A DNA stretch of 64,000 nt from Dioscorea cayenensis subsp. rotundata (taxonomy: Eukaryota > Streptophyta > Magnoliopsida > Dioscoreales > Dioscoreaceae), in the NCBI RefSeq assembly GCF_009730915.1, contig NC_052472.1, positions 744,001 through 808,000 of the forward strand, in the 5' to 3' direction. The position numbers and the translations under genes are program-made. The notes under the pieces were generated by a model. It ran no database searches, was not told the DNA's origin, and saw only the letters and a list, made by a program, of their open reading frames with translations. Positions 48,305-61,300 of the stretch are shown here, piece by piece. The number at the start of each line of letters is the position of its first letter. Position 1 is the first letter of the stretch.

Positions 48305-48313
48305 TTTTTTATA

Positions 48314-48398
48314 GGGAAAATTACTGTTCAACCCTCGTAATTTTCAAAACTTCCCAAAAACCCCCTCCAACTTTTGCACACCCCGGACAACCCTCCGT
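48314..48398 (+). repeat. MULE left terminal inverted repeat
   Basis: Starts GGGAAAATTACTG. Aligned with the inverted right end over about 85 bp it is roughly 70 percent identical by eye, with matching AACCCT, CCCAAAAACCCC-like and TTTTGCA words. Confidence 0.7.
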
Positions 48399-48721
48399 TA
48401 TATTTTACATTCCTTTTAACCCCCCACCGGTAAGTTGAAGTGGGTCCACGATATGAAATTCCTTTTTTGCCCTTGCAAAAGGTGGGAAAAATGGCGCCCA
48501 ATCATAACTTTCTTTATGCATAGTTTTTCAATTTTTTTTTTTGCCTCATGCTTGCTTTTTCTCAAACAAAGTTTAGAAGGCTCATATCTTGTTCTTCTTG
48601 TTCAGAATCTGGCAACGCTTCTGTTCCACATCATGGCGAGCCTGAGGGTGTGGCATGCCTTCCTTCCTCATCCGATCAGTCGAAGTGTTGTCGTTGGATA
48701 TCGACAATGTTTTGAAGGTGT

Positions 48722-49048
48722 TGAACATTTCGAGACGCACTTAGGAATTTTTGCGATCAAAAGGAATTTTTGACTTCAAATTCTCGAAGAACGAGAAACA
48801 CCGAGCGATCGTGGAAGGAAGCTTCGACTTCAAAAATGGCGTATAAGGAAGCTATATTCCCATACTGGGACAATGACAGTCGATGGATGAAAATCGCGAA
48901 TCATGCGTTTGCGACCGCTCTGCGACGAGAAGGCAACCCTGGGTGTCCTAGAGCGAAAGAGGATCGAGTCGTGAAGTGTCCCGAGGTCCGCAAGTTGCGT
49001 TGTAGCCATTGCACGCGTTTCGGTCACAATCGCGAGATCGTGGAATGA
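48722..49048 (+). pseudogene. MURA transposase remnant: N-terminal MuDR domain joined to a decayed zinc knuckle
   Basis: In shifting frames the first ~120 bp give FRDALRNFCDQKEF then DFKFSKNEKHRAIVE, which is the MuDR N-terminal (WRKY/GCM1-fold DNA-binding) pattern. A frameshift follows the TTT run. About 100 bp later the frame reads NPGCPRAK and CSHCTRFGHNREIV before a stop at 49046-49048. That is the C-terminal CCHC knuckle region with its last Cys lost. The roughly 500-residue catalytic core (DDE) that should lie between is missing, so this is a deletion derivative. Confidence 0.65.
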
Positions 49049-49510
49049 ATCATTGCCGACTAGGCATTAGTGTATATACTTCTTATTATTGTTAAATATT
49101 GAACTTTATATTTAAATATATCTCTTACGGTTTAAATATTTTATTCTCTGTTTAACTGTTATTTTTATCGTTTAAAATAAATTTGTATCCGCTTAAAATG
49201 TACAACGGGATGGTGCTAGCGGTTCCCCAAGCGTAATTAATACACGCTCGGTTCCCCAAGAGTTTCCACTCCCGTCGCACATAAAAATCGGAAGCCGAAG
49301 CGCCAGCAGGCTGTTGGATTTCGCAGTATAAATGGGAAGGAAGAACCATTTCGTTGAACATACTCTACTGGCGCAACCACTCCTCTTCCTCTTCTTCTTA
49401 TGTGATGGTCATCCTGTCGAGTCAAAGATTTGGTGTTCACATCATTCGCTCCATTCAAACCACATTTTTTAGATTAGAGACTTTTTTAGGATGTGTCATG
49501 AGAATTTTCC

Positions 49511-49676
49511 TCTGGGACATCATCCGTAAACAACCTGTAGGTGAAAACTTTCTTTTTCTTGGCCAAGTCTAAATGCTCGCCTTCTTGCTCTACGGGTAAG
49601 CAATGACGGAAGTGCGTTTCGACTTGGTCAAGAAAAGAAGGTTTCACTTACAAGTTGATTGCGGATGATTACCCGG
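49511..49676. repeat. MULE-internal foldback, copy A
   Basis: Arms of roughly 65 bp. The left reads GTGAAAACTTTCTTTTTCTT then GCCAAGTC at 49541 onward, and the right inverse carries TCTTGACCAAGTCGAAACGC. Complementarity extends outward to CATCATCCG / CGGATGATT. The loop contains TACGGGTAAGCAATGACGG. Confidence 0.75.
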
Positions 49677-49999
49677 AAAAAGGTTCATCACATATCCTTT
49701 AAAAAGGACTTGATCTAAAAAAAATGTGGTCTGACTGGAGCGAGTGTTCTGGACACCCTATTCAAAGGTGTACTTGGACGATTCCGAGGTCCGTGATGGT
49801 TACGTCGTGCGTTAAACGAAGAGTTTGAAGCTTTAACAGAGAATTTTTGTATTGTCTTACGTGAACATTCTATTTTTATCAGAGATTTGTATTTTAAGTA
49901 AAGGTCGTTGTAATTATGTGAAATTTAAACAGAGAAAAATAAACTTAAAGGGAGAAACTGATAATTATACAGTGAAACTGAATGTTAAATAGTACACAG

Positions 50000-50146
50000 C
50001 ATAACAATCGATAAATCTCTTTCGATCGTGTACACAGATGAAAATGAAAACCAAAACAAAACCCTAGCCGATGAATCTCCCTGCGGACTTCAATATCATC
50101 CAACAAGAACAGAACCTCAAAACGAAACAGAAAAAAAATCTTTTTC
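50000..50146 (+). repeat. Internal diverged copy of the right subterminal region
   Basis: Shares, in the same order and orientation, ATAACAATCG, TTTCGATxGTGTA, AAAACCAAAACAAAACCCTAGCC-type and GAAATCTCC/GAATCTCC words, CTTxATATC and GAAAAAAAATCTTT with 56299-56479. Confidence 0.75.
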
Positions 50147-50639
50147 TAACACAATCGTTTAAAGAAAAAAAACCCTACTGAAAACGAGTTTTTCTCGTTG
50201 TAAGATTCTTCTCTTTTATGTTTATCTAGTTGTATAAGTTGATTACTGTTTAAATTCTCCTGTGTCTGTGTAAATAAAGTACTTTTCTATTTAAACATTG
50301 TCATCTTCGTTTAATTTACCTATCAGTATTTAACTATTTAATTTATCGTTAACATTGTAATTTATCATTTAAACATTTTGTGTATCTGCTTAAAATTTTT
50401 ATCTTTTCCGTTTAAACTGAAGTATTGGCAGGTGGCAAATGGCAAGTTTATGGTATCCCGTGCACAAGAATTGATGACGGCTTTAAATTTTCTAAAATTT
50501 AACATAAATATCCAAAGACCCATTTCTGGTTAATGAGAAAAGCTCGGTCCCCCGTGCGTTTCAGTTTTTTTCTGGGATCTGAAGCGTCAACCGGCTTGCG
50601 AACTTGACACCATAAATGAGAAGGAAGACCACTTCCCCT

Positions 50640-50705
50640 GGACACCCCCTCCTCCTCCTCTTTCTCGTCCTCCTCCTCCTCCTCCTTCTCCTCCTCGTCC
50701 TCTGC
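50640..50705. repeat. CTC/CCT-rich microsatellite inside the MULE
   Basis: Interrupted CTC trinucleotides 75-135 bp before foldback B. A shorter TCT/CTC run sits at the equivalent place before foldback A (about 49378-49399), supporting duplication of the whole block. Confidence 0.8.
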
Positions 50706-50778
50706 TTCTTCTCAGATGAGTTTCATCTTAATGTGTCCAAGATATTCGCTTAAAGGATCTGTCATGATCCTCTTCTGA

Positions 50779-50947
50779 CTGGAGAATCAATCACGCAACA
50801 AGTTAAACTTTCTTTTCCTATTCAAGTCAGAAAGCCCGCCTACTTGCCTGAATACGGAGGATGACGGGTAAGCAATTAAGCTGGCCTTTTGACTTGATCA
50901 GGAAAAGAAAGTTTTCACGTATTGCTTGATTTCGGAGGATTCTCCGG
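50779..50947. repeat. MULE-internal foldback, copy B
   Basis: Left arm from CTGGAGAATCAATCACGCAA through AAACTTTCTTTTCCTATTCA. Right arm from GACTTGATCAGGAAAAGAAA through GTTTTCACGT to GGATTCTCCGG. About 75-bp arms, loop near GGATGACGGGTAAG. Confidence 0.8.
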
Positions 50948-51246
50948 AGAAATGGACCATGACACATACTTTAAGTATTCAAACGGAATTGATATTTACC
51001 ACTTCAGAATTGTTCTCATCCTTTAAAAGCTTTTCCTTAGTATGCAAATATTATTTTCTGTGTTTAACTCTCAGGATCTTCGCTTCAGTCAGACTACAAG
51101 TTAACCTTTTTTAACTGTCAGTGTGTTTTCTTAACCTTTATTTACTGTTTGTGTTCTACGTTGTTTCGTGAAAGGATCTTCGCTTCAGTCAGACTACAAG
51201 TTAACCACTCTATCTGAAAGGATGTTTCGTGAACCTTCTTCCTTAT

Positions 51247-51440
51247 CTTGAGAATCAATTAGCCGTAATCACCCAACTAGTTAAACTATCTTTTCCTGCC
51301 CAAGCCGAAATGCTATCATAATTGCCTGAATGCAGAGGATTCTCCAGCGGTGGATGACGGGCAAGCAATTAAGCGAGCATTTCGACTTGGGTAGGAAAAG
51401 AAAGTTTTCACGTATTGCGTGATTGCGGAGGATTCTCTAG
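51247..51440. repeat. MULE-internal foldback, copy C
   Basis: Left arm CTTGAGAATCAATTAGCC, then AAACTATCTTTTCCTGCCCA. Right arm GACTTGGGTAGGAAAAGAAA, GTTTTCACGT to GAGGATTCTCTAG. Closest to copy B over the whole block including flanks (both followed by TTTAACTxTCAGGATCTTCG). Confidence 0.8.
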
Positions 51441-51842
51441 AGGAGGGAGTTCAGGAAACATCCTTTAAGACGGGGTTGACATTTACCACTTGAGACTTTC
51501 TGTTACCGTTTAAGAAAATGACGTCAATGTACAACTATTACGTTCTGTGTTTAACTATCAGGATCTTCGTTTAAGTCCGACCATGACACATTGATTAATA
51601 GTCGTTTTCATGAATGTGTGTTGTTTAACCTTTTTAATGTCAGTAGGTTTTGCAGGGGTTCAAGATGATGCGCATGTTATGCAACCTGTGAGCGTTCGAA
51701 TGTACTGGACACTTGTTTCAGTTATACGAGGGTCGAGTCGTGAGTGTCCAAAGTCCGAGCGGCCGTTGTAAATGTTGTAAATGTTGTAAATCTTTTATAA
51801 ATAAAACGACACAATCGTATTTGACTGTGAACTAGAAGGCAG

Positions 51843-51965
51843 CCTGGGCGGCCTAGACGAAAGAGGATCGAGTCGCAAGCGTTTGATGTCCGCGAGTTAC
51901 ATTGCAGCCGCTGCCAAGGATCCGGTCACAATCGACGATCTTGCAATGAAACTGTCGCCGACTAG
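51843..51965 (+). pseudogene. MURA transposase C-terminal zinc-knuckle remnant
   Basis: A clean 40-codon frame begins PGRPRRKRIESQAFDVRE and ends at TAG 51963-51965. It contains an intact CCHC knuckle CSRCQGSGHNRRSC (C-x2-C-x4-H-x4-C) preceded by the basic GRPRRKR hook, the usual C-terminus of MULE transposases. The same nucleotides, decayed, occur at 48930-49066. No other part of the transposase is recognisable just upstream. Confidence 0.7.
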
Positions 51966-53644
51966 GCATTGTTAATAAACCGACGATGAAACATTGTGTA
52001 TTGATGGGAACCTTTCCACATTTAAACTCTTACTCTTTACAACGAATTGAATGTATTTAAACAGAGACATTGTTATTTTAAACGGATACACTGTAATTTG
52101 AAATATTTCAACTGATGTTTAAACGATATATGGTATATTTAAACAATGAAACGGAAATGTACACAACTACTACGTAAATTAAATAATGAAATGAAAGCCC
52201 GAATGAAATTTAACCCTCGCCTTACAATTGAAAAAACAAACAAAAATTTACATTGAGATATACAAGTCATGTTCTTCGAAAAACAAAAAAACAATGAATT
52301 GAATTTATGACAGTTTACGCTCCCCTCCTTACGTATCGCGGGTAACATACCTTTAATCGAAAATATTCCTAAAGAGAAACATTGTTTCTAAAGAGAAACA
52401 TTGTGTATTGATGGGCAACTTTCCATATTTAGTTAAACAATGAGTGCATTTATTTAAACAGAGACAATGTTATTTTAAACGGGTACACCGTAATTTGAAA
52501 TATTTAAAACTGATGTTTAAACGATATATAGTATATTTAAACAATGAAAGTGAAATGTACACAATTACAACGTAAATTAAACAATGAAATAAAACCGAAT
52601 GGAATTTAACCTGCTTTACAATTCAAAACAAACAAAATTGACATTAAGATATACAAGTCATGTTCTTCGAACACGAAAACAATGAATTGAATTTGTCCAG
52701 ATTTACATTTGAAAACAAAATTGACAGTCAGATATACAGGACATGTTATTCAAAAACAAAATTTAACCCGCTTGTGACGACCCCCTTTGTCGTGGGACGC
52801 GTACCGCCTCCCTCCTAAGTATGCGGGTAACATACCGTGATCCGAGGTAAGGGAACGTCCCGTCTGCGGTGGCCGTAACTTCTCATCCCACGGAATTGCT
52901 CGATAAACCGCGATGACGTGAGCGCCGTAATCGACGCTTCCTTGTTTTGGCGTGGGGTTTTACGTAGTCGCATGCGAGCGGGTACTTTGCCGTCGCCGAC
53001 TCGCCGAACTCCATATCGACACAAAGGTCGAATAGATTCCGCTGTCGAGATATGCAAGTCGAGATTAGAATACCGATTTAAATACCAAACGGATATTAAT
53101 CGGACATAATTAAAGAACTTACCATGTCCAACGCGTCCCTTATTGTACCCTGGACATGAAGAATAACGCTCAGTATTCTTGTTTATCATCGTCTGTGACT
53201 GACGACATGGAAGTGGCCATTCATGATTATCGGGAGGATGACAATTTGAACTTCATGCAGGTCTGCAGACAAAGCATCCCCGATCATAGCCATAATCGTG
53301 TCATGTGCGTCGTCCCGCTTTGACATAAAAGCAAGTAAGCGGTCTCGGTGATGGAGGCGCTTCTTGTAAGGATATGGCTCTTTGCTCAGCGACTTTTTGT
53401 ATTATGACACTGAAAGCGTCCCATCACATCATCGATGACCATCTCCTTCCCCTCAAGCAGCATGTATAATTTGTCGGCGTGTGAGTCTGATAGCAGTCAT
53501 TCTTCCACACGACATATGCGAGGTTAAACGATAACAAATATAATAAGACCATATTGTAAATATTTAAATGATATTATTAATTGTTACATGATATTATATA
53601 TAATTAAACGATAAGTAGAAAAATTAAATGATAACATAAAGGTA

Positions 53645-53700
53645 TTAAACACTATTAGGAAATAGTTAAACACTATTAGGAAATAGTTAAACACTATAAG
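53645..53700. repeat. 21-bp tandem repeat in a TTAAAC-rich spacer
   Basis: Two and a half nearly perfect units beginning TTAAACACTATTAGG. It is a clear local instance of the wider TTTAAAC periodicity of the element. Confidence 0.85.
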
Positions 53701-53930
53701 AAAACCTTTAAACAATATCATAAAAACGTTACACTTACCCGTCCCATGAGCAGATTGAGGAAGATCCTCATCAACTCTCGCTCAGTATTTGTTAAAACGA
53801 CTCGAGCCAACCCATTTCTTCTTCTTCGAATAAAAAGCTTTCCCGAGCCGTCCGGGTCCAATTTTTCGATTAGCCTCGATCATCTCTCTCGTTGCTCGGT
53901 CGGGGTCTTCATCAAGCATCTTCCTTCGAT

Positions 53931-54090
53931 GCGGGGGACGATGGCGACAACATCAACGCTGACACATCCTTACATGGTTGTTATTGTTGTGGGATTGTGT
54001 CCGCTCGATCGCGAGGGACGACGGCGGCAGCATCAACCGCGATCACATCCTTACATGGTTCTTATTGTGGTGGGATTGTGTCCTGCTTGG
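53931..54090. repeat. 80-bp tandem duplication in the cargo linker
   Basis: Two units starting at 53931 and 54011 share GGGACGA, CATCCTTACATGGTT, TTATTGT and GGGATTGTGTCC. Both encode, on -, a DTIPxQ plus QPCKDV-like unit interrupted by stops. Confidence 0.8.
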
Positions 54091-56298
54091 CTGCGGTACT
54101 GTCGGCCACGGCCACGGCCACGACAACGGATTCGACGATCTTCTCAACCGTGGCCATGACAACAGCATCATTGGGAGACACACCCTTAACTTGTTCTTGA
54201 TCTTCAGGGATTGTGTCCATCTTTGATGCCGCAATCTCGGCAGCCGGTTCCACCGGGTCGACGATTTCATCGAGAAGAGAATCAACGACCTTCTCAACCG
54301 CGGCAACGGCCACATCATCTACGATGTCCTCCACCGTCATGGCCATGTCATCAACGGCGACAGACTCAGTAACAGCATCAGCCGCCGATAGTGTTGCTAT
54401 TGTTTCATCGTCAGCCGGCGGTGGAGACAGAGGCAGTATTGTTCTCCTCTTTTTCGCAAGTCTCTTGAATGTGGCCGCCTTTGGAACGACCTTCCCGATG
54501 ATGTCGTCGTCGTCAAATTCCGACGCCTCGTTCGTCCCGAGTGCTTCAGTTCTTTTCGAGGGATGGCGCAATGGGTTGTGAACGTCCTTCCAGCGCCTCC
54601 ACATGAGCGACAAGCCGAGGAAACTCGGTCATCAATATCTGGAATGCCTGCATAAGAGTTGCGGTGACATCTTCGCCCAATGTCACGGTGGGAGTCGCCA
54701 CGGTCGGAGGGTGCGCCATGGTCGAGGGGACCGTCGTTGTCGTGGTAGGGGGTTGTTGCAATCTGCAGGGGTAGGGGGAGGGCTTCTCCGGCTCGAGGAA
54801 TCGCTGCGCGTGGTGGGGGTCGGAAGTAGGAGAACGGCGTCTCAGCGCCACGATAGAGGCCGCCCTCTCATCCCGCCTTCGAGCAAGTGGTTCCGGGAGC
54901 AATGGCATCCATCCGTCGGTTGGCCCTCAACAAATATTTCTTCTTCAAACGATTCACGGAACCATTTCGAGAAACTAACATATGTAAACCAAACAATTTC
55001 AGAGAAAATCATTCATTTTAAACTATAAAAAACTATATTTAAAGCAGAGTGTTTATATATTTAAACGTTATAGAATATAATTAAAGCGGAGAACAAAAAT
55101 ATTTAAACCAAGTATGAATAAGAGTTAAACGGTAAATACTAAAGTTAAAGCGCTAACTAAAAATGTTTAAACATTAAAGACTTATGTTAAACATTGTCCA
55201 TGATTTATTACCTCTTTTCCATCGAGCGATGACAAGCTCGTTTCTACCGTCGCTGCTTCCGGTAAGTACTTTCACCGTAGCACGAGCATCCTTGGGATCT
55301 TGCCGAAAACGGACTTTCTTCCCCGTTCCGGCCACTCGTAAAACCGAGACGTTAAGCGCGACCGAGCAACCCTTAATGTACCCTCGTGTTGGTCTTCTTC
55401 CCGCAAGCATCTATCTCTGCACTCGGGCGGCCGCCATGGAATATCCTCCATAAGCCACTGTGCGTCGCTCGCGCCCATCGTCAGTCGCCCATGGGCCGGG
55501 TAGATCATCGACGTAATCAGCGATCCGATTCGAACCGAGTATGATGTATTTGGGAAGAGGGATCGTCCCCATGAGGTACACCATCAGGAGTTTGACAAAA
55601 TTATCTTCTTCTCCACTCTGTCGAACAAGTTGCACAAGAGTGCTCTTGATGGAGTCTCCCCTGTCGCTCGTAGGGTCTTTGATAGATACCGCCCTTCGAC
55701 AGCCGACCGGTTTTTCTTCTTCGAAGACCATCTGCGTCGCCATCGCAACGCGAGACCAAGAACGACGGCCACATCTTCGAGGTCCGAAACTCGCAGGTTT
55801 TCCCCGATCCTCGAATTTATTAGTGCGACCATCGTACTTTTGCAAAAAGAGAATCAAGAAGGGCCCTTTCTTGGTATATGGCTTCCACTCAGATGACACC
55901 GCAAAGCGGTGTCCTTCGAATAATCTCCCACTCGTCGAGGGGTCATGTTAACTTTCAATTCAACTAAGGTCTCCACAACCGTGTCAAATAGCATCGCCCA
56001 TTAACTAGGTTGACCGCCATAATCACAAAGCCTGCGATAATAACAACACATTATCGACAAAAAGTTTAAGCGGAAATATAAGGTTTTAAGCGGTAGAACT
56101 CTCGGTTATTAAGCAGAGATATAAAATGTTAAAGCAGAGACCCATTTTGTTAAGCAGAGGCGAGAATACTTAAAGCAGAGACAACAAATTTTAAAACTCA
56201 GTAACATCTCATTTCTTAAAGCGTCAACCTCGTTTTCAGTAAAAGCGCAACCATATCAAACGAAAGGGAAATGTACATTATAAATATTACACTAAATC

Positions 56299-56479
56299 AT
56301 AACAATCGAAAAAAACTATTTCGATAGTGTATACATACTGAAAACTGAAAACAAAACAAAACCCTAGCCGAGAAATCTCCTGCAGACTAACAAAACCCCA
56401 CCGAGAAATCCCCCTACGAGACTTGATATCTTCCAACAAAAAGCAGGAGCACAAAAAGCAAAAACCGAAAAAAATCTTT
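56299..56479 (+). repeat. Right subterminal region, source of the copy at 50000
   Basis: Lies upstream (in - orientation) of the DUF1985 part, so it is likely the cargo gene's 5' leader. See the copy at 50000-50146. Confidence 0.75.
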
Positions 56480-56886
56480 CTTTATATGAGCAGTTAACAT
56501 AAAACCATACTCAATACCTTAGATTGCAAGCGATGAAATGCCAACTAGTTGCTGGGGGACTTCTCCTTCGAGATACTCGGGTGGAAAGGGAAAAAGGCGA
56601 TGAAATGCCAATTACGGAGGCTTGGCAGTAGAGACAACTTCGGAGGCAGACCGAAATGGAAAAGTCAAGACGTGAGTTGAGAAAAAAAGCAAGTAAAGCT
56701 GACTCCAATAAATTGCCTCTCGGGGTTACCCTACGGAAAACCGCCCACTTCCTCTCAAATCGCCGAGATGGGCTCGTAGCCCACGACTCCCCATGCAAGG
56801 GCATTTTTCGTCCAAAAATTTGAAACTCACTCCGTTCACATCCGTTCTGAGGGTTTGAGGGTTTAAAAAAACATAGACTTTTAAAA

Positions 56887-56970
56887 AGGAGGGGTTTTTG
56901 GGGATTGCAAAACTAACGGGGTGTTTTTGGCAATTTTACAAACTTAAAGGGTTTTTTTGGCAATTTCCAC
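56887..56970 (-). repeat. MULE right terminal inverted repeat
   Basis: Inverted it starts GTGGAAATTGCC and carries AACCCTTT, CCAAAAACACCCC and TTTTGCA words that line up with the left end. Confidence 0.7.
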
Positions 56971-56979
56971 TTTTTTATA

Positions 56980-58315: not shown

Positions 58316-61300
58316 TTAGTTAGGCTTAAAGAATTTAAGCCTGAGGCCACTATTAACCATGCTCCAGACACCTCCGAGGGAAAAGGCTAAGCTGAAAGCT
58401 ATTCCCATTATCCCCAGGCTCCAATTAAGGTACCAATTGAAGCTAAATCTAGATGGCTTTTTAATTAGAACCCACATGAAGCAAGGGTAGGCAAAGGTGA
58501 CAGGGAGAGTGAGGCCACCTAAAAGACCAGCAAGGCTGGAGAGGAAGGGAAGTGCAACCCCTATTAGGAATGAGATGAAGCCATAGAATACTCGGAAGCC
58601 AGAACGCACCCAGATTGAGCAGGGCCTATTTGTTCGGCTGGTATAAAATGCTTCAAAGCTGTCAAACACTGGCATTGAATATATCTGAAAGCTGCTCAGA
58701 CAGTTGAACACCACCAGCAGGAATGTTGTTGCCAGAAGTCCCCTGGGAATATCAGGGCTGTGAAATGCAAATAGGGCGTTCAGCATCCCTCCTGCAGGCA
58801 TCTACAAGGAAAATGGGAATGAACCACCCCATTACTTACTTATTTCACAAATCATTCTTCATATTAATTCAAACAAATCAAAAAGCTGTTGTGCAACATC
58901 AATGCGACAGCCAATGCATGACAGGATATCAGGCTGAAATTTGAAATCTTGATAAACTCACAAGGTTCCCATAGGCCCAGAATCCTCCAATGGCAACTGG
59001 GAATAAGCACATGGCAATAAGAATATACGCCACCTTAGCACCTCGCCACATTGGTACATGAGCAGGATGTTTAAAAGTTGATGGCATTGTCGCCTGCAGA
59101 ATACAATAAAACATATGACTCTAGTTACTTGCAATTCATAGATATCAGAAATAAAACCTCCAGGTCTTGGCATATATATTCCGAATGTAATTACTCTTTC
59201 TCTGATGATAAGGTCACACTGCCACATTTTTCTCATTCAAGAAGAAACACGCGTATAGTATAGAAGATAAACACCACAAAAATTAACTTCTACTCAAACA
59301 CAAGCAATTCTATTATATAGAGGCCTTGTACCTGGATTTCTAGTGCTAGATTGTGACCTCGGAATGCAAACGCGATTATACCAAGTGCATTCAAGATTGA
59401 GAAGATTGATGCAGTAAAAGAAGGGGACTTAAGTGGCTGATAAGAGATGGAAGGAGGCCTTGTCTGGCTAACAGAGAGAACCCAGGCCATCGTAGCGTAG
59501 ATAATTGCAGTCACAGCTCCAATGAGAGAAAGGCCTGCTATTGAATTAAGGTTTGGAAGCTGAGAGAGAACAATACACAACGAAGTAAACACCAGATACC
59601 ATTCAACAGTTGAAAGGGGGTTTGATGAACACAGGGGACCACACACAATCTGAAAAAACAGCTTCATTGTTTCTCCTCCAATAAGAATCAATGCAGTTGC
59701 AGTGCCTGCTGAGAGATAAACAGTTGGGAATAAAGCCAGCCAAACGCCTAATCTTTCACCTGGAAAGAGAGGATAGCAGATGTCACCGAAGCAATAAGGC
59801 AAATAGGCTTTTAAGGTCAAAGCTAGCCCAACAGTACTTAACACTGAACAAGTTAATCTCTTGGGATGAGTCCATGATAGAAATGCAAACGTTTTCTGAC
59901 ATGTAAGATGTCTCTCAACCACAGGCACCTTTTTGTATCCAGCTATGATGCGGAAACAAAAATTGTAATATACTTGCACGAATTGATCCTTAAACAGGGG
60001 ATCTAGTTTAGATATGAAACAGACAAAAATGTAGTACAAGGCATCACAAATTATCAACAACATTCGTAACATTCGTGTTTACCAAGAGCACTGCTCCACA
60101 ACCTCAATAGTGACCATAAACGGGCATACACCATTCAAATGCCAACTTCAACAAGCATTGTATGGGGAAAAAACCTGTCTAGATGTAAAGCCACTTTTCT
60201 AATAAAAATTACCTTCCTCATTAATATATCTCTTTGGTTTCAAGTTTCAAACTCACATTGTAGCAAGTTTTAGTTAATAGAAACAACGCAGCTCACAATA
60301 TGCACCAACTATTAGCTACATGAGAAGTCTACAAACAAGCTTACCAAAGGCAGCTTGTGCGAGCTCCACGTATCTATTGTACCTCTTTCCTGGTACAGCT
60401 TCATGAAGCTTAATTAGTATCCAGAGAGTGTAAAGTTGCCAAAAGTAGGCTATAGTCAATGAAAATATGCCCCAGCTCCTGCAATTCCAAGATAAAAATA
60501 AAAACTATAATAATCAAAGCAGCCATGAACCTACAGTCCTTTTTACCTACAAAATTTCCAATGATTTTTTAACTACCATAATTACTAAAAAGCACTAAAA
60601 GGTGGGATTTGAGAGTTCTGATGAATGATATGAGCATGGTATTCCATGTTATTCATTGGGATGGTCACATAATGAAAGTCAAATTAATATGCCAAGGAAC
60701 GGTGCCATGACATTTATTAGGAGAAGCTTGTCCCACTGGTGACTTGAGATCTACGGAGTGGGTGTGCACTTGACTACATATATATCTAGCAAACATCAGT
60801 GGAATAATCTAACCACATTGAGCTATATAAGTAAGAATAGAAAGACACATTGAGATACATGGTATGTATTAGTTTGCCGTTGGTGGTGAATATGTTGGGT
60901 AGCTACATATATCTAATAGAGGGTCTCTGAAATCTCAAATCTGAATATGGCCGGCATATATAATAAGCTCATTCTATATCAACAGTTAACAAAGTAAAGC
61001 AAAACCAACTAGCTACAACAAGTCTACAAGTTAGTAGTGTTCTATGCTATTAATTCATTGCGGAAGTCTGGAAGAAAAGAAAAAAGCAGAAGAAGAAAAA
61101 AAGAAGAAGAATAAAACATTAATTAGCTCAACAGTATAATGGAAAGAAAGAAAGAAAAAAAAAATATATATGCACCAGCCCAGGAAGGCGAACGCAACAG
61201 GAAGAACAAGGGCTTGAAAACCGACTCCAGCATTGAGATTGTGGAAGGCAGCGTAGTGGGCGTTGCCATTGCGGGACTCAGTGATGGGAAGCCAAGCATC

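Follow-up and report, generated by a model that had tools for sequence, protein, structure and literature searches.

Phased TTAAAC arrays in a high-copy Mutator-like element family of yam suggest a VANC-like anti-silencing system

The window analysed here, a stretch of 64,000 nucleotides from the yam Dioscorea cayenensis subsp. rotundata (GCF_009730915.1, contig NC_052472.1, positions 744,001 to 808,000 of the forward strand), contains at its positions 48314–56970 a Mutator-like element (MULE) with degenerate terminal inverted repeats (TIRs) and a perfect 9-bp duplication. This element is a non-autonomous copy with deletions, and the TIR-MULE family to which it belongs has a high copy number. 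Its non-coding parts, including two introns of a DUF1985 gene, hold the hexamer TTAAAC or its complement GTTTAA at a pitch of ~20.5 bp. These phased arrays, which were absent from an earlier account made from the letters of the window alone (referred to as the sequence-only reading), suggest a function. We favour, with moderate confidence, the interpretation that the family represents a VANC/KIU-type (VANC/KAONASHI-like) anti-silencing system housed in a TIR-MULE and using a new target word, because it combines the gene, the convergent gene order, arrays at corresponding sites and a second family whose word differs. The arrays would then probably be docking sites of a transposon-encoded anti-silencing protein.

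The element boundaries proposed by the sequence-only reading proved exact to the base (Table 1), and the perfect duplication it had noted was found as the target-site duplication (TSD) TTTTTTATA at both TIR edges, with 9 of 9 positions matching. The TIRs that it had recognised were likewise confirmed, as 48314–48398 was identical to the reverse complement of 56887–56970 at 54 of 84 positions. The corresponding global alignment score of 23 is far above chance, given a maximum of 2 in 2000 shuffles and again of 2 in 2000 random window segments. Searching the 584-Mb genome, in which counts of end matches are lower bounds, revealed both ends to be abundant, with at least 1464 and 1418 first-look candidates and 40 scored matches apiece at 98% or better. 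We fetched 20 of the 40 left-end copies (L017–L036), each with ~9.7 kb of downstream DNA, and two additional copies were picked by their transposase (L044 and L045, the left end of L045 not being found). In alignments to the window element, 17 of the 20 left-end copies ended 40 bp or less from the right end, so that the expected genomic relatives sharing both ends do exist; for L018, L025 and L027 the alignment stopped short of the right end within the fetched DNA. Exact 9/9 duplications flanked the TIRs in 13 of the 16 other copies tested (a set made up of 15 left-end copies and of L044, for which the right edge was placed by hand), the exceptions being L020 (8/9), L026 (5/9) and L031 (4/9), and none of 272 mismatched left/right edge pairs matched as a control. 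Outside this count were L018, L021, L025, L027 and L032 (right end not found, reading N, or beyond the fetched DNA).

The gene content of the family is illustrated by L044, a 9-kb copy with TIRs and the TSD TAATAATAA that carries a 442-aa open transposase frame (Pfam matches DBD_Tnp_Mut, 80.1 bits, and MULE, 75.4 bits), a SWIM frame (40.6 bits) and the convergent gene. A MURA-type transposase is therefore present in this relative, and the window copy retains only ~80 of its N-terminal amino acids; neither blastn nor tblastn matched the catalytic core (amino acids 82–442 of the L044 transposase) or the SWIM part in the window copy. These results support the proposal that the element derives by deletion from a MULE family that carries Ulp1/DUF1985, as the window copy is without the core and relatives carry both a transposase and a convergent DUF1985 gene. 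The full-length copies envisaged earlier were recovered in part, in that L044 has the transposase and the convergent gene, but no intact Ulp1 was found in the family. Among the left-end copies, tblastn detected DUF1985 homology in 19 of 20 and the transposase core in 3 (L026, L027 and L029). A total of 16 of these 20 copies combine DUF1985 homology with absence of the core, and form a non-autonomous class retaining the presumed anti-silencing part.

The sequence-only reading had further placed a DUF1985 and Ulp1 relic on the reverse strand. Because a six-frame Pfam scan of the window copy gave nothing significant (shorter pieces gave weak, chance-level matches only), the domain names could not be confirmed from the window alone, but they were confirmed through relatives by tblastn. 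The DUF1985 part of the claim stood, with a best E of 3e-47 to L036, and PF09331/PF10536 matches were found in L036, L020 and L045 (36.5, 33.4 and 33.8 bits for DUF1985, cut-off 35.1; 50.6, 55.2 and 45.1 bits for PMD, cut-off 34.9). The Ulp1 part is less secure and rests on DNA homology together with weak Peptidase_C48 matches in only two relatives, L044 (19.4 bits) and L020 (15.5 bits; cut-off 20.7). In a genome search for DUF1985, in which the best 150 of 455 candidates were scored, one of these 150 lay within 15 kb of 25 of the 120 scored transposase matches, with 0.9 expected by chance. Specifically, 22 of these 25 pairs had the DUF1985 match downstream and in opposite orientation, 20 of them at a distance of 2.7–5.9 kb. 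Moreover, 10 of 47 genomic Ulp1 matches had a DUF1985 match 1.4–2.9 kb upstream on the same strand (matched by eye). Since matches to transposase, DUF1985 and Ulp1 are recurrent neighbours in this arrangement, the convergent transposase / DUF1985(-Ulp1) architecture recurs in the genome.

The TTAAAC/GTTTAA hexamer occurred 47 times in the window element (5.4 per kb) versus 35 times in the remaining 55.3 kb of the window. All 47 copies lay outside the 3,405 bp marked as coding-derived, a bias to which base composition contributes. In L044, 33 of 39 hexamers were outside the marked coding-derived stretches, and three of the other six lay in an intron according to the intron alignment. When all hexamers were scanned for pairs 19–23 bp apart in the window element, TTAAAC ranked first, with 13 pairs in phase and none out of phase, where the highest value in 100 shuffles was 2.4. 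We then pooled 18 element bodies, namely the window element, L044, the available part of L045, and 15 left-end copies (all but L018, L021, L025, L027 and L032). Hexamer density was 3.6–8.0 per kb in all 18, and distances between hexamers of the same orientation peaked at 20–22, 40–43, 60–63, 80–84, 101–105 and 122–126 bp, corresponding to six periods with a best period of 20.5 bp. As a control, the flanks and the remainder of the window held 0.43 TTTAAAC per kb on both strands.

Across the genome, triples of the word at 20–22 bp numbered 15,200 versus 24 for the backwards pattern, and at 15–17 bp there were 16 versus 17. With ~5.1 triples per element (91 in the 18 pooled bodies), this count corresponds to ~3,000 element equivalents if these 18 are typical. 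The pitch outlives the sequence of the spacers, because adjacent spacers were only a little more alike than random unit pairs (45% versus 39% identical, 198 adjacent pairs). The window copy also holds 15 motif-like sites of the form TTAAAGC/TTAAGC beside 38 TTAAAC[AG]. A literature search over titles and the beginnings of abstracts, which is a weak test, found no published link of the TTTAAAC word to such elements.

A second word was encountered among four DUF1985 loci from the Pfam search (L037–L040). While L039 had TTAAAC arrays, L038 and L040 (78% alike) instead had TATACA/TACACA (TATACACA-like words) at 20 and 41 bp, without a TTAAAC array; their TATACA array scores were 11.4 and 11.3, versus maxima of 4.0 and 4.2, respectively, in 60 shuffles each. 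No array was present in L041 and L042, the two best PF10551 matches. Phased TTAAAC pairs occurred in all 20 left-end loci and phased TATACA pairs in none of them, and the whole window has one phased TATACA pair. Several genome matches of the second word were seen by eye as facing arrays ~3–5 kb apart. Tentatively, we consider it quite possible that at least two VANC-like systems co-exist in this one genome at a common two-turn pitch of ~20.5 bp but with different words (TTTAAAC and TATACACA), and that one of these systems has expanded to ~15,000 phased triplets. How the DUF1985 protein assembly is built would then dictate the pitch, leaving the word free to vary, and defective copies without transposase, to which the shorter classes and the window copy belong, would keep their docking arrays and be freed in trans.

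The closest known counterpart is the VANC system of Arabidopsis. VANC21 binds YAGTATTAY words clustered in the non-coding DNA of VANDAL21; the introns of VANC21 and VANB21 contain repeats with this motif, as does the DNA upstream of VANA21. VANC6 has a different target word, and VANC proteins contain a DUF1985 domain (PMC5735166). By binding motif arrays in the non-coding DNA of its own element, the DUF1985 protein removes methylation (PMC5735166, PMC10398659), and the targets are described as fast-diverging tandem arrays on which RNA-directed DNA methylation also acts (PMC10398659). A review adds that the Ulp1-bearing VANC genes of VANDALs (KIU) likewise recognise non-coding motifs (PMC13317346). 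The yam family resembles VANDAL21 (Hi) and VANDAL6 with VANC21 and VANC6 in having a DUF1985 protein beside a MULE transposase, motifs clustered in introns and upstream DNA, and family-specific words (PMC5735166, PMC10398659). It differs in the word itself (TTTAAAC, as opposed to YAGTATTAY and AGTTGTCC/AGTTGTAC), in its ~85-bp TIRs, which are still recognisable where those of VANDALs are described as degenerated, and in its mostly unalike spacers, whereas VANDAL arrays are called tandem repeats; binding in the yam family is, moreover, only presumed.

The sequence-only reading had compared the element to the Kaonashi type. This comparison holds for the convergent DUF1985 gene with its weak Ulp1 match, as KAONASHI elements (KI-MULE/KIU) carry a Ulp1-like domain in reverse orientation to mudrA, but not for the ends, since the account of Arabidopsis KI-MULEs gives them as non-TIR (PMC2528002), while the yam family has degenerate TIRs and a Ulp1 under the Pfam cut-off. 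With its recognisable TIRs the family is not a member of KAONASHI (KI-MULE) proper and is similar in design only. Another parallel is offered by melon and grapevine, whose TIR-MULEs (Mutavine families) can carry Ulp domains, in both orientations, and have 9-bp duplications in grapevine; the passages of PMC2528002 compared here mention no motif array.

A 2022 EMBO J paper on VANC co-evolution in eudicots reportedly names helical periodicity in its abstract, along with the DUF1985, DUF287 and Ulp1 domains, and for that reason we claim no novelty for the principle of a helical pitch. Complete members of the yam family carry a MURA-type transposase and a convergent gene of the VANC/KAONASHI kind with the order DUF1985, linker and Ulp1-like part. 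Under the anti-silencing interpretation, the DUF1985 protein, supplied in trans by intact copies, would bind the arrays on one face of the helix and strip both intact and defective family copies of DNA methylation, which would let the transposase mobilise them. TATACA at the same pitch might be the target of a differently tuned DUF1985 paralogue.

The phased words might instead be binding sites of the transposase itself, like the subterminal repeats of other DNA transposons, with an incidental DUF1985 gene. This would agree with the location of the arrays inside elements whose relatives encode a transposase and with the binding of short clustered words by transposases of other superfamilies. 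However, we find it unlikely, as the arrays sit in introns and internal gaps up to 3–4 kb from either end, two DUF1985 families have different words at one pitch, and shorter array-bearing copies are without the transposase core. An explanation through intron or chromatin signals (splicing, nucleosome exclusion or phasing) that act without a dedicated protein seems highly improbable to us: although the arrays are A/T-rich, spaced by about two helical turns and partly intronic, they also occur outside introns, and such signals would neither need a fixed hexamer nor be expected to differ between DUF1985 families.

Alternatively, the arrays could be ageing minisatellites, in which a ~20-bp unit was duplicated in tandem and then drifted without selected function. 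Tandem Repeats Finder indeed reported 19–21-bp tandem arrays in several parts of the window, with near-identical units near 53.65 kb, and neighbouring units resemble each other a little more than random ones do (0.45 versus 0.39). In alignments of the two introns (18 and 17 copies), conservation of the motif columns, furthermore, hardly exceeded that of other A/T columns (0.872 versus 0.860 and 0.890 versus 0.862), a marginal difference. Yet neutral decay would lose word and pitch together, while here both are retained between largely dissimilar spacers, at several sites in each element; the arrays of the window copy are exclusively outside coding-derived DNA, and a second family has the same pitch with another word, so that this origin appears improbable as well.

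The marginal conservation of the motif columns is one of several observations that weigh against the anti-silencing interpretation. The DUF1985 frame of L044, the 9-kb copy described above, scored only 13.6 bits (and its PMD match likewise 13.6), and Ulp1 scores in the family are under the Pfam cut-off. L037 had no array, and the control flanks themselves hold some 20-bp arrays, perhaps from neighbouring elements. Genome-wide, the TATACA triple occurred 536 times versus 267 times backwards, which is a twofold excess only and has A/T microsatellites among its matches. Finally, the ratio of nonsynonymous to synonymous substitution rates (dN/dS) of DUF1985 was 0.99 for L036–L044 and 0.57–0.96 for 15 pairs of the transposase-less copies L019, L020, L024, L031, L032 and L033. 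This shorter class looks relaxed, as would be expected of copies freed and moved in trans, and equally of plain decay.

These ratios stem from a comparison of 45 DUF1985 pairs in all, in which six pairs among L020, L036, L023b and L045 gave values of 0.17–0.48, showing past constraint on the DUF1985 gene in the lineage of the better copies; the transposase gave 0.22–0.52 (3 pairs). The label of a relic applied by the sequence-only reading is perhaps overstated, as differences between copies, clustered at CG/CHG sites, look partly like base-calling error. In L020 versus the seven other copies of the 6-kb class (L017, L019, L024, L028, L030, L033 and L034), the density of differences no more than about two bases from a CG/CHG site was 3.2–4.4 times that elsewhere (11.6–20.4% versus 3.3–5.9%). 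They include short indels and A-to-G changes beyond C-to-T, and many A/T stretches were identical by eye. Part of this clustering may thus reflect base-calling error at methylated cytosines; genuine decay, of which the mutability of methylated cytosine is a part, contributes as well, in a share that is inseparable from it. Some frameshifts may be artefacts of this kind, and the TTAAAGC/TTAAGC variants of the motif may have the same cause.

The remaining features of the element are collected in Table 1. On the forward strand, the MuDR and zinc-knuckle remnants of the sequence-only reading were upheld through relatives, as ~80 amino acids and two knuckle stretches, but gave no significant Pfam match from the window itself, the second knuckle matching at E 0.84 only. 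By blastn, 48833–49069 matched L045 (s4681–4911) and 48906–49068 matched L044 (s4782–4939). In shorter copies with a transposase remnant, tblastn found at most about amino acids 1–86. The idea of a repressor peptide made of the first ~80 amino acids and a zinc knuckle was dropped, as the frame is shifted in the window copy and the DNA-binding part is truncated in other copies. Immediately left of the second knuckle, 51765–51791 is a perfect 9-bp tandem repeat of three copies (GTTGTAAAT). Three long hairpins are possible small-RNA sources; inverted matches of the hairpin region were found by blastn in L026, L027, L029, L036, L044 and L045, and a hairpin scan across copies was confounded by GC-rich coding DNA. 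The flanking DNA at 59293–60078 and 4126–36220 contains frames of ordinary plant genes (amino-acid transporter, kinases, WD40, PADRE and dirigent-like), the transporter frame lying ~2.3 kb from the element end.

Table 1. Features of the element and its target site, in window coordinates (strand: + forward, - reverse,. none).
Feature	Position	Strand	Evidence or detail
Left TSD TTTTTTATA	48305-48313	.	9/9 identical to right TSD
Left TIR	48314-48398	+	54/84 identical to right end; 40 scored genome matches at 98-100%
Transposase remnant, first ~80 aa only, two frames	48602-48828	+	tblastn with L044 frame, E 3e-7
Transposase 3' end, zinc-knuckle region, copy 1 of 2	48833-49068	+	blastn; knuckle read by eye
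Array of 3 GTTTAA, 20-bp pitch	49130-49175	-	
Long hairpin 1	49535-49670	.	RNA fold z -7.0
Scattered motif copies, both orientations	50157-50417	.	
Long hairpin 2	50795-50925	.	RNA fold z -7.2
Long hairpin 3	51275-51415	.	RNA fold z -7.4
Zinc knuckle copy 2, original position as judged by L044/L045	51831-51970	+	89% to L045; CCHC by eye
Array, mostly TTAAAC	52022-52582	+	steps of ~20-21 and 40 bp
Ulp1 (Peptidase_C48)-like exon, decayed	52765-53510	-	DNA homology to family copies
Intron with motif array	53511-53745	-	GTAAGT donor, kept in 16/17 aligned rows by eye; TTAAAC at 53524, 53604, 53645, 53666, 53687, 53708
Low-complexity linker exon between DUF1985 and Ulp1	53785-54867	-	tblastn E 1e-94 / 6e-96 to L044 / L036
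Intron with motif array	54985-55212	-	GTAATA donor, TTAG acceptor by eye; 6 GTTTAA in aligned stretch, steps 20, 42, 22, 42, 43
DUF1985/PMD-like exon, frame-shifted	55215-56096 (tblastn match 55177-56096)	-	best E 3e-47 to L036
Variant motif (TTAAGC/TTAAAGC) array upstream of DUF1985 gene	56040-56240	+	21-bp period at 56111-56195
Right TIR	56887-56970	-	40 scored genome matches at 99-100%
Right TSD TTTTTTATA	56971-56979	.	9/9 identical to left TSD

For the annotation of such families, a label like 'Ulp1-carrying MULE relics' misses what is likely the functional part, namely the non-coding arrays, and methylation-linked base-calling error may give young elements a dead look. Transposon anti-silencing was worked out in Arabidopsis, and the thousands of phased arrays in yam offer a natural data set on whether word, density or spacing matters. 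With one pitch and two words, the question of what the protein reads becomes directly testable.

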